From: an uncultured Bacteroidota bacterium
GTDB taxonomy: Bacteria; Bacteroidota; Bacteroidia; Chitinophagales; Chitinophagaceae
DNA length: 64,000 bases
Reading direction: 5' to 3'
Assembly: GCA_903906365.1 (NCBI GenBank)
Contig: CAIVKC010000034.1
Span: forward strand, 1 to 64,000
Shown here piece after piece: positions 13,792 through 52,542 of the stretch. The position numbers were made by a program, and so were the translations under genes. The stretch's first letter is position 1, and each line of letters starts with the position of its first letter. The notes beneath the pieces are model-generated. The model worked only from the letters and a program-made list of their open reading frames with translations, had not been told where the DNA came from and ran no database searches.

Positions 13792-15075
13792 TTATTCATA
13801 GCGGAGGGCCTCAATGGGATTGAGACGGGCTGCTTTAAAGGATGGGTAAAGTCCTGCGAGCAGGCCTACGATCGAACAGATGACTATACCCCAAAATAGC
13901 CACCACCAGGGCACTACAAAACCGGTGCTGAGGAAAAGGGAAAAGCTATTGCCCACCAGGATTCCCAGCAGGATGCCAAAAAGGGCACCCAGCAGGCTGA
14001 TGATGATGGATTCATAGAGGAACTGCCTGCGTACGCTTCCCTTCCTGCCACCGATGGCCTTGATCAGACCAATTTCCTTGGTACGTTCGGTGACCGAAAC
14101 CAGCATGATGTTCATTAAACCGACGGCAGCGCCAATGAGGGTGATAAAGCCAATAATAACGGCACTGACTGTAATGAAGCTGAGATTTTTCATCAGCATC
14201 TGGACAAACACATCGCTTTTATCAATCACAAAATTGATGTCTTCTGTGGTAGTCAGCCGGCGAATGGGCCGGAAAGTGCCCTCTGCTTCCCCGATGGCAG
14301 CATCCAGCATCTTTACATCGGGAACCTTCACCAATATATTGAACGAAGCATTGGCATTGGAATTAAAAAAGCGGCGAACACTGTTATAGGAGGTGACAAT
14401 CATATTGTCCCAGCTCATACCCAAGGTAGAGCCTTTGGAATCCAGTGTTCCGATGACCCGGTAGGAAATACCGTTGATCTTGATGATTTTTTCCAGCGGT
14501 TTTTCCAGGGAACCGCCAAAGATTTTCTTGGCGATATCACTTCCGATGATACATACATTCCTGCCCGATTCCATATCCAGGCTGTTGAGGTTCCTGCCGG
14601 CAGCCAGCGTGAAGCCGTTCAGCTCGATGTAGTTTTCATCCCCGCCGTTGATGCGGACATTGGGGGAGGTTTTTTTATCGCCCAGGGAGACAATGGCATT
14701 ATTGGTTCCCTGCAGGGTCAGGCCAATTTTGGAGGGAAGGGCAAAGCGTTTTTTGAAGCTCTCGGCCTGTTCCTTGGTAATGGGTTTGCCTATGTTTGAT
14801 TTCTTTTCCTTTTTCAGGCCTTTCTTTTCCTTTTTTACGTCGGAATTGTCATCGCCGCCGAAGTGCATGCGGTATTGCTTGTAATGCAGCGTAAAGCCGT
14901 TGGCACCCATGGCAGCGAAACTTTCTGTAAACTTCTGCTTCATGGCGTCGATCGCGGTATTGATGCCGACCAGGGCCATAATCCCAAAGGCAATGATCGC
15001 TACGGTAATCCCCGTGCGGAGCTTGTTGCCCCGGACCGTGCGGAATGCCAGCGAAATGGTATCTATGATTTTCAT
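13792..15075 (-). CDS. ABC transporter permease (MacB/FtsX family)
   Basis: N-terminal TM, MacB_PCD periplasmic domain, C-terminal FtsX domain (ERTKEIGLIKAIGGRKGSVRRQFLYES; LYPSFKAARLNPIEALRYE). Confidence 0.93.
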   Translation of the reverse strand: MKIIDTISLAFRTVRGNKLRTGITVAIIAFGIMALVGINTAIDAMKQKFTESFAAMGANGFTLHYKQYRMHFGGDDNSDVKKEKKGLKKEKKSNIGKPITKEQAESFKKRFALPSKIGLTLQGTNNAIVSLGDKKTSPNVRINGGDENYIELNGFTLAAGRNLNSLDMESGRNVCIIGSDIAKKIFGGSLEKPLEKIIKINGISYRVIGTLDSKGSTLGMSWDNMIVTSYNSVRRFFNSNANASFNILVKVPDVKMLDAAIGEAEGTFRPIRRLTTTEDINFVIDKSDVFVQMLMKNLSFITVSAVIIGFITLIGAAVGLMNIMLVSVTERTKEIGLIKAIGGRKGSVRRQFLYESIIISLLGALFGILLGILVGNSFSLFLSTGFVVPWWWLFWGIVICSIVGLLAGLYPSFKAARLNPIEALRYE

Positions 15076-15207
15076 GAATGGAGTATAGGTGCGATAAAAT
15101 TAAGGATTCCGCCAACAATCCCGTGAATTCTTATGTAAACGGCATCACCGGCCGGTGCACCGGCAGGCAGTTTCGGGCTCCTGCAGTCCAATTTATTCGG
15201 GGGCTGT

Positions 15208-49897: not shown

Positions 49898-49924
49898 GGC
49901 ATTCACATATAAACAAGGTACAAG
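49898..49924 (+). repeat. Left terminal inverted repeat of the IS1595 element
   Basis: See element; flanked outside by TSD CGTTCCAT. Confidence 0.88.
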
Positions 49925-50210: not shown

Positions 50211-50370
50211 ATACATTAATTTGTAAAGCAATAGCCTAATCTGTTACGGGACGGGGCTTTTTGCTTTGGTTACGGAATACTCAAATTTACCATTATTTCA
50301 CAAATCAAATCTCTTTTATACATTTGGACGTTAAAACATATTAGCGTTTAGCTATTTTCTGTTGAGATAA

Positions 50371-50464
50371 AACTGGTAATTTTTTCACAACCGCAGGAAT
50401 AGGCAAGAACGCTCACGCTAATGGCGTGGGCTTTTGTCATTCTGGGTTGTAGGACTTACCAGTT
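50371..50464. ncRNA. Candidate structured RNA (long imperfect hairpin) in IS1595 passenger region
   Basis: Nested pairings: AACTGGTAA/TTACCAGTT, ACAACC/GGTTGT, CAG-AAT/ATTCTG, CAA/TTG, AA/TT, GC/GC, CACGC/GCGTG with loop TAATG. Confidence 0.45.
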
Positions 50465-50546
50465 CCTTTCTCACAGTCTGGCTTATAGTCCCACGCTATT
50501 TTTATTTTATTATGCTTCAGGGATTAAAGCGTTCAAATAAAATTTT

Positions 50547-50960
50547 ATGAAACTGGTTGTTTGTTGTTTAATATTATTTAGTGGGCTAACAGTTAGCGCA
50601 CAGGATAAAATGATTTATAAATACAGGGCTTTTGAATCTTTATTTTACGATCCTCAATCTCATGTTAATTTAAATAGTGCAACATGGAATAAGACTAATA
50701 TATTGGTAACTGTGGATTTGAATAAACAGCGTATAACAGTATATGCGGCGGCTGAACAAGAAATAGATTTAATTGGTAATCTTCCAGATAAAACAAGTGA
50801 TGACGCTTCGTGGATTAGGAAGGTAGGAGTTGATCAAGATGGCGTAAAATGCAATGTAGAAGTACAATTTTTTAAAAATATAGTAGATGAGCATATTTGC
50901 ACTTTGTATTTAGAATACAAAGACTTTCATTATCTGTATAGATTAAAATCTAACGATTAG
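50547..50960 (+). CDS. Hypothetical secreted passenger protein
   Basis: 137 aa with signal peptide MKLVVCCLILFSGLTVSAQ; no family recognised. Confidence 0.7.
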   Translation: MKLVVCCLILFSGLTVSAQDKMIYKYRAFESLFYDPQSHVNLNSATWNKTNILVTVDLNKQRITVYAAAEQEIDLIGNLPDKTSDDASWIRKVGVDQDGVKCNVEVQFFKNIVDEHICTLYLEYKDFHYLYRLKSND

Positions 50961-51090
50961 TTTTCTTTTTATTTTTTGGCGGTTGATTTACTAATTTGCC
51001 AATAGCATTTTCAAAGGTCATATCTACCTTAAACTTCTTATCGTATTTATTAATTTTCTTGGTTGCCGATTTCTTTGATTTCTTTTCCAT
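50950..51090 (-). CDS. Small basic passenger ORF (46 aa), overlaps transposase 3' end
   Basis: MEKKSKKSATKKINKYDKKFKVDMTFENAIGKLVNQPPKNKKKTNR; ATG lies inside the transposase C-terminal codons; not in ORF track. Confidence 0.6.
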   Translation of the reverse strand: MEKKSKKSATKKINKYDKKFKVDMTFENAIGKLVNQPPKNKKKTNR

Positions 51091-52024
51091 AACTATTTAA
51101 AGTTAGGGAATTATTTAAAAGTGTATTGTATTTAAGTCTGCCTTGACAGTTTTGTAATGCAATTGTAAAGCGTTCGCTATCTTTTATTTTCCTACTATTA
51201 AACCGATAAGCCATTTCATCACAATAGCGTTGCAGGTGCTTAGAACTAACTTGGTGATATATTCCATAAACAGAACGTTTAAGCTGGCTCCAAAAGTTTT
51301 CTATTGAATTAGTATGAAATCCATCTACTTTAAATTCACCTTTCAAGTGGTTAACTGCAACATGCTTTTTAAAATGTTTTGCTCCTATTGTTTTGTACAT
51401 TTTAAAAGCATCAGTAACAAGTGTTGCATCCTTATCAATATGTTTTAACATTAATGATTCTGCGTTACGTTTATTCATCCATTTGGATGCCTGAACAACA
51501 ACTTTGCCGCCTTGTTCAATAATACCAAATACAGGTGTTTTACGCTGGTTCATTTGTGCTTTTGTTTTGCTCTTTTTACCCTTGTGCATGTTTGATTCAG
51601 TTCCCCCGAAAAACCCTTCATCCATTTGTACAATGTTCTTTAATCTAACAGGCATTTTAGCTCTCACACCTTCTCTTATTCTATGTAGCATAAACCACGC
51701 TGTTTTCTGTGTTACGCCCAAATCACGCGCTAATTGACAAGATGAAATTCCTTTCTTATGTGCAGTATTAAGATAAACAGCGATAAGCCATTTATTGAGT
51801 GGTATTTTGCTTGCTTCAAATATTGTTCCTACCAAAACAGTAAAGCGTTTATAACAAGTTTTAGAAGCGCATTTATAGCGTTCATTATTTTCAATGATAT
51901 AGCATTTACCATGTCCGCAATAAGGGCAAGTAATACCATTCTGCCAGCGTTGTTGTTCTAAGAATTTTTTACAGCTCTTTGCATCTGGCATACTGGTAAT
52001 TAATTCTTGTAAGTTCTTAAACAT
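51050..52024 (-). CDS. IS1595 family transposase (DDE, N-terminal zinc ribbon)
   Basis: CPYCGHGKCYIIENNERYKCASKTCYKRFTVLVGTIFEASKIPL; QMDEGFFGG; LVTDAFKMY; HTNSIENFWSQLKRSVYGIYH. Confidence 0.95.
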   Translation of the reverse strand: MFKNLQELITSMPDAKSCKKFLEQQRWQNGITCPYCGHGKCYIIENNERYKCASKTCYKRFTVLVGTIFEASKIPLNKWLIAVYLNTAHKKGISSCQLARDLGVTQKTAWFMLHRIREGVRAKMPVRLKNIVQMDEGFFGGTESNMHKGKKSKTKAQMNQRKTPVFGIIEQGGKVVVQASKWMNKRNAESLMLKHIDKDATLVTDAFKMYKTIGAKHFKKHVAVNHLKGEFKVDGFHTNSIENFWSQLKRSVYGIYHQVSSKHLQRYCDEMAYRFNSRKIKDSERFTIALQNCQGRLKYNTLLNNSLTLNSYGKEIKEIGNQEN

Positions 52025-52346: not shown

Positions 52347-52542
52347 AGAATGGCTGAACATATTGTATTGCAGCAAGCAAACAATATTTGGTTGTTATCA
52401 TTATCTTTTCTTCGTCATTAATTGAGTAACGAATGTTTACAAGTGAGGTATTGCAAACAATATCAACAATATGAGCATTTTTAAACTCAATTAATAAATC
52501 TTCAAACCTTGTACATTCTTTAGATATAGTTGCCCGTTCCAT
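52288..52542 (-). CDS. Hypothetical passenger ORF whose ATG lies in the target-site duplication
   Basis: MERATISKECTRFEDLLIEFKNAHIVDIVCNTSLVNIRYSINDEEKIMITTKYCLLAAIQYVQPFF...; CAT at 52540-52542 is the end of TSD CGTTCCAT. Confidence 0.4.
   Translation of the reverse strand: MERATISKECTRFEDLLIEFKNAHIVDIVCNTSLVNIRYSINDEEKIMITTKYCLLAAIQYVQPFFKTPLESLLDSHTDYKTHS
52508..52534 (-). repeat. Right terminal inverted repeat of the IS1595 element
   Basis: See element; flanked outside by TSD CGTTCCAT. Confidence 0.88.

Follow-up and report, generated by a model that had tools for sequence, protein, structure and literature searches.

A hairpin upstream of a transposon-borne gene belongs to a family of structured RNAs of Bacteroidota, putative cis-acting leaders with two alternative folds

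The window, as we call the whole stretch of 64,000 nucleotides analysed here, comes from an uncultured member of the Chitinophagaceae. It contains a gene for a 137-aa protein with a signal peptide (50547..50960, plus strand, from the ORF list), which is presumed to be the controlled gene and whose product has no Pfam match, and, on the minus strand, the IS1595-type transposase (51050..52024; Pfam DDE_Tnp_IS1595, 3.6e-36, and Zn_ribbon_IS1595) of the mobile element that carries both this gene and the leader described below. A scan of four ORFs of the window returned the IS1595 transposase only and no reverse transcriptase. Lysine-rich small ORFs (46 and 56 aa) occur beside an IS1595-type transposase in the window (50950-51090, minus strand) and at one homologous locus, and a weak imperfect inverted repeat of 18 nt (49907-49924 / 52508-52525) might mark the transposon ends, with no evident target-site duplication. 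Upstream of the 137-aa gene, and on its strand, a -7 promoter box TACATTTG (50319..50326), which matches the Bacteroidota TAnnTTTG by sequence, precedes the core of the leader RNA (50341..50508).

Within this core the original prediction had placed a hairpin of 94 nt (50371-50464), and every helix it listed was found in the sequence. The hairpin folds at -44.3 kcal/mol against -20.9 +/- 3.0 in dinucleotide shuffles (z = -7.8), and none of 200 shuffles folded as well; the wider region of 207 nt (50340-50546), folded against shuffled controls, gave z = -7.1, and folding of the minus strand was weaker (z -5.7). The prediction would have been refuted by an energy no better than that of shuffled sequence or by a lack of compensatory change among homologous copies, and neither was encountered: the energy lies far below the shuffles and the copies show such changes extensively. 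Position 50464, however, is not where the structure ends: the hairpin is enclosed by an outer and a closing stem (50341-50499), and a second hairpin (50514-50530) follows. It forms the central part of a larger RNA, likewise conserved, which comprises 50341-50508 and the downstream hairpin to about 50530, and the finding is both real and much larger than was first reported.

From 5' to 3' on the plus strand, the RNA begins with strand a (AGCGTT, 50343..50348), whose partner is either strand d, in the closing stem P1 (50341-50347 with 50493-50499, covarying at 50341-50343 with 50497-50499), or strand b. P2 (50365-50368 with 50468-50471) is 99.5% paired with double changes in 4/4 pairs and has one mismatch in the window copy itself, while P3 (50372-50378 with 50457-50463), a part of the 9-bp helix predicted originally, is 99.6% paired with double changes in 7/7 pairs. 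The variable middle stem P4 (50387-50392 with 50445-50450) was obtained by folding of the window and shows some covariation (50390-50393 with 50447-50450). Strand b, AACGCTCACGC (50408..50418), pairs either with strand c in the apical stem P5 (50411-50418 with 50424-50431; 99.4% paired, with a conserved U-G wobble) or with a; strand c, TGGCGTGGGC (50422..50431), has b or d as its partner. A short GGN/N'CC helix (50452..50466, 92.7% paired) forms a pseudoknot whose loop contains the 3' strand of P3, and in the window, as read from the sequence, its register is off by one base (50452-50454 with 50464-50466). Strand d, AGTCCCACGCTAT (50487..50499), may pair with a, with c or, via its AGTCCC (50487-50492), with the complementary loop GGGATT (50520-50525) of the hairpin P6 (GCTT/AAGC, 50514..50530), which was identified by sequence and whose flanking stem is enriched across copies. 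Between d and P6, directly 3' of the closing stem, lies a U-tract (50500..50509).

A DNA search of 100 related genomes revealed eight places of the same architecture, with 71-89% identity over short stretches, and in their alignment with the window copy compensatory changes were seen in 13/27 predicted pairs. These nine sequences were used to build a covariance model, R1, so the match of the window copy to it (E 6.5e-26) is one by construction. R1 matched 168/397 genomes of a family sample (156/335 of those of good quality), 56/249 of an order sample, 95/392 of a class sample and 35/299 of a phylum sample, seven of the latter from other classes, and one genome had as many as 10 copies; the samples overlap, so the counts are not additive, and they were searched without an out-of-phylum control. 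The leader has a single copy in its own genome. A small genome, G897, carries seven diverged copies, each before an unrelated gene, which have in common about 100 nt of upstream leader as well as a promoter box. Among plasmids a single record was matched, by two of three leader variants: the mobilizable plasmid pB3-10 (NZ_CP044017.1), from the Chitinophagaceae member Rhizosphaericola mali B3-10, has one copy at 15021-15184, with no listed gene beneath it and the hypothetical protein gene E0W69_RS20295 downstream of it; in phages two leader variants found no DNA match. The existence of a family of conserved structured RNAs is all but certain; it is spread over the phylum Bacteroidota, and the hairpin is one of its copies.

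In an alignment of 101 copies the strongest covariation falls on P2 and P3. For the nested fold (P1, P2, P3 and P5; 100 distinct sequences), 96.1% of cells are paired, compared to 78.6% in shuffles, with double changes in 18/26 pairs; the alignment was fitted to the nested helices, and these percentages lean towards them. The covariation score was 0.485, against 0.093 at most with the partners slid. The c-d, a-b and GGN/N'CC pairings were absent from the model used for the alignment. The complementarity of CCCACGC (50490-50496) to GCGTGGG (50424-50430), followed by a T-rich run, had been proposed as an alternative, attenuator-like pairing; it is present in the sequence, and across 100 distinct sequences this c-d helix (GCGUGGG with CCCACGC) is 97.1% paired with double changes in 4/8 pairs. 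A second alternative, a-b, in which the 5' end AGCGUU pairs with the AACGCU located at the foot of the apical stem, has 91.9% of cells paired and few double changes; by eye, matched changes of a and b could be recognised (GCAU with AUGC, for example in L013, L056 and L113; AGCUUU with AAGAGCU or AAGGCU in L142 and L123), as could those of a and d in the response-regulator group (AAAGUGU with GCGCUUU). The variable pair of the GGN/N'CC helix is UA in 55 copies, CG in 28 and GC in 5.

A same-strand ORF follows 152/153 non-redundant copies at a median distance of 43 nt (interquartile range 33-66), with ATG as start codon in 141/152; the ORFs were picked by rule, and some assignments are possibly wrong. 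A TAnnTTTG box stands no more than 110 nt upstream of 103/153 copies, where 12.5 would be expected, and the U-tract begins exactly at the end of the closing stem, with T at 77-94% in six fixed positions (150 copies). The short and fairly constant gap to a start codon in almost all copies is best read as that of a 5' leader of the downstream gene, and the exact placement of the U-tract, as far as sequence comparison can tell, points to a transcriptional role. At three homologous loci small genes of the XRE helix-turn-helix type lie divergently just upstream of the leader. A leader peptide or other coding sequence was rejected, since no frame is preferred: among 115 copies the three frames stay open in 18, 16 and 20, and stops are equally frequent in all of them.

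Conservation does not stop at the U-tract. Many copies have, between it and the start codon, a hairpin whose loop is complementary to the GUCCC of strand d; the complement is found in 57% of GUCCC copies (82% with G-U) vs 5% (11%) at other loci, and where other sequences replace GUCCC the match is kept in 19% vs 5%, with compensatory loop variants such as GCCCC/GGGGC, GUCUC/GAGAC and UGCUC/GAGCA. P6 and its loop pairing are clear in a part of the copies only. In a subgroup that mostly precedes restriction-modification genes (type III-like or type I-like), the hairpin loop ahead of the ATG repeats instead the 5' strand of the copy's own P3 (CUGCUA, CUAGAA, CUAGCA, CUACCA and others), so that the 3' strand of P3 has two possible partners there; at ten loci this loop was noted in a U-tract/A-tract hairpin right before the ATG. 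Conserved pairing 3' of the U-tract indicates that the read-through RNA matters.

One rival is a small RNA gene that stands by itself, is transcribed from its own promoter, ends at a U-tract terminator and acts in trans, its place ahead of other genes being due to shared mobility and not to their control. Such a gene would be compatible with a promoter box and a U-tract in terminator position that bound a unit of about 165 nt, and with several copies per genome at unrelated loci; it fits poorly with a start codon so near (median 43 nt) before otherwise unrelated genes and with compensatory pairing that extends past the U-tract to just before that codon. We consider it unlikely, though not negligible. 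Taken together, the pairing past the U-tract, the position, the promoter box and the U-tract itself favour a cis-acting leader.

Two states may be suggested for this leader. In a closed state a would pair with d and b with c, giving a long closed hairpin whose closing stem abuts the U-tract and which would resemble an intrinsic terminator with a very large loop; in an exchanged state, reached by an exchange of the four strands, a would pair with b and c with d. The two sets of pairings share bases and cannot coexist in one molecule. A fold of mutually exclusive pairings followed by a T-run, as had been envisaged from the window alone, is thus supported by comparative data across homologues. 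Nested folding of the window copy, without pseudoknots, gives -63.5 kcal/mol for the closed and -49.6 kcal/mol for the exchanged state; the latter is about 14 kcal/mol less stable, which counts against a switch, and its formation would depend on co-transcriptional folding or on the help of a factor or ligand. One may also think of a single static pseudoknotted fold, for instance an element of translation start or RNA stability, in which the alternatives would be differences between lineages and not switching: some groups do keep a-b where a-d is broken (column 6, with 14 unpaired a-d cells), and Bacteroidia ribosomes do not use Shine-Dalgarno pairing (PMC9976891), which makes other start-site devices plausible. 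Most copies, however, allow both alternatives on shared bases, and the exact placement of the U-tract again argues for transcription, so that we find a static fold quite improbable. The comparative evidence gives good support to a cis-acting leader with two alternative folds, as yet untested by experiment; the occurrence of both in vivo is an inference, as is any assignment of one of them as "on".

Another possibility, that the palindrome acts as DNA in a mobile element or at a recombination site (attC-like or MITE-like), agrees with a scattered distribution and with copies near transposases and on a mobilizable plasmid, yet is already largely refuted and can hardly be maintained against the orientation fixed relative to the downstream gene, the sequence of P2 and P3 varying freely while their pairing is kept, the conserved apical U-G pair and the excess of G-U over A-C in plus-strand pairs (246 to 45 cells). 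This bias implies selection on the plus-strand RNA, and together with the weaker folding of the minus strand it disfavours an antisense RNA or DNA hairpin. An integron attC site, suggested by the long palindrome and not formally scanned for, is opposed by the same bias and by the fixed position upstream of genes; as to a MITE, homology among the seven G897 copies starts, by eye, close to the promoter box, where that of a transcribed leader would be expected to start. A retron msr-msd RNA was set aside because no reverse transcriptase was present among the downstream proteins scanned, which do not include every neighbour of every copy.

The genes behind the leader are diverse. Their 152 proteins form 82 clusters, of which 68 are singletons; one cluster comprises 32 response-regulator receivers and short proteins linked to them, and there are 8 sigma-70-like factors and 7 type III-like methyltransferases; type I-like methyltransferases are among the singletons, and PKD lipoproteins, PLD-like proteins and many small secreted proteins are also found. 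An IS1595-type transposase is located near 9/153 copies by tblastn, the window element being one, and near a tenth at a further locus. The idea of a cargo RNA specific to the transposon does not hold, as most copies have no adjoining IS1595 transposase (about 10/153 do) and the family is phylum-wide; the other half of that proposal, a structured RNA or switch, is the one that gained support. No common pathway unites the downstream genes, and no ligand is suggested by them. We infer that the element resembles a portable unit of promoter and leader for accessory genes more than a riboswitch dedicated to one pathway.

We propose, with a probability of roughly 0.7 and in the absence of expression data, that the element is a cis-acting 5'-leader switch of a Bacteroidota-wide family, acting by attenuation and/or control of translation. 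Transcription would start just upstream of 50341, the RNA being the 5' UTR of the downstream gene; the fold would determine if strand d, and with it the short hairpin ahead of the start codon, is available, and this in turn may decide on expression of the gene, via read-through past the U-tract and/or access for ribosomes. What the comparison of sequences shows is the conservation and covariation of the element, its position, the promoter box and the U-tract; control of the downstream gene is inferred, and the triggering signal is unknown. A broader suggestion, namely a phylum-wide, uncatalogued and signal-responsive leader RNA which by its four-strand exchange provides portable control for horizontally acquired genes, including restriction-modification systems and transposon passengers, is possible but tentative, and we would give it worse than even odds. 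Should it be a regulatory switch, Bacteroidota would have in it a common orphan leader RNA, present in about a quarter of sampled class genomes; as many as 10 copies occur in one genome, and they precede accessory genes of unknown regulation. These genes raise the question of whether a common RNA control module on mobile genes reads one cellular state, and the strand-swap architecture pinpoints the exact base pairs for testing.

As to known RNAs, the window has no Rfam match at gathering thresholds, in agreement with the original prediction; with Rfam 15 the element remained unmatched both in 4 homologous loci (E <= 1) and in 16 further loci (E <= 5), save an insignificant overlap in one of the latter (MCS4, E 3.7). 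No fitting description was found in the literature, in a search that did not extend to the alignments of the GUCCY-hairpin of PMC2864571 and of the many unnamed candidates of PMC8040213. The GUCCY-hairpin, which is not in Rfam, is listed for Bacteroidetes and Proteobacteria and rated ambiguous as RNA in PMC2864571; its name resembles the conserved GUCCC of strand d, and by name alone an overlap is neither shown nor excluded. Flavo-1 (RF01705) is likewise a widespread Bacteroidetes RNA motif of unknown function (PMC2864571, PMC9723704), but is reported in sense or antisense placement indistinctly, whereas the orientation of the leader is fixed to its gene and cmscan gave no match to Flavo-1 in the 20 homologous loci at E 1 or 5. 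A riboswitch should have, in a 5' leader, a conserved and structured domain that can adopt alternative folds, and the element fulfils this; for a fold set by a ligand there are no binding data, and the diversity of the genes suggests no ligand. Riboswitch classes with diverse target genes do exist, for example the c-di-GMP riboswitches. With these the leader shares a structured 5' position, pseudoknots, alternative pairing and multiple copies before unrelated genes, and it differs from them in having no Rfam match or known ligand and in that many of its targets look horizontally acquired. The criterion of an intrinsic terminator or attenuator, a U-tract immediately 3' of a stem, is also met, without data on transcript ends. 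Like such attenuators, the leader has a closing stem that ends exactly at the U-tract and competing partners for the 3' strand of this stem; unlike them, it has a structured domain, about 145 nt in size, closed by this stem, and its conserved pairing continues beyond the U-tract.
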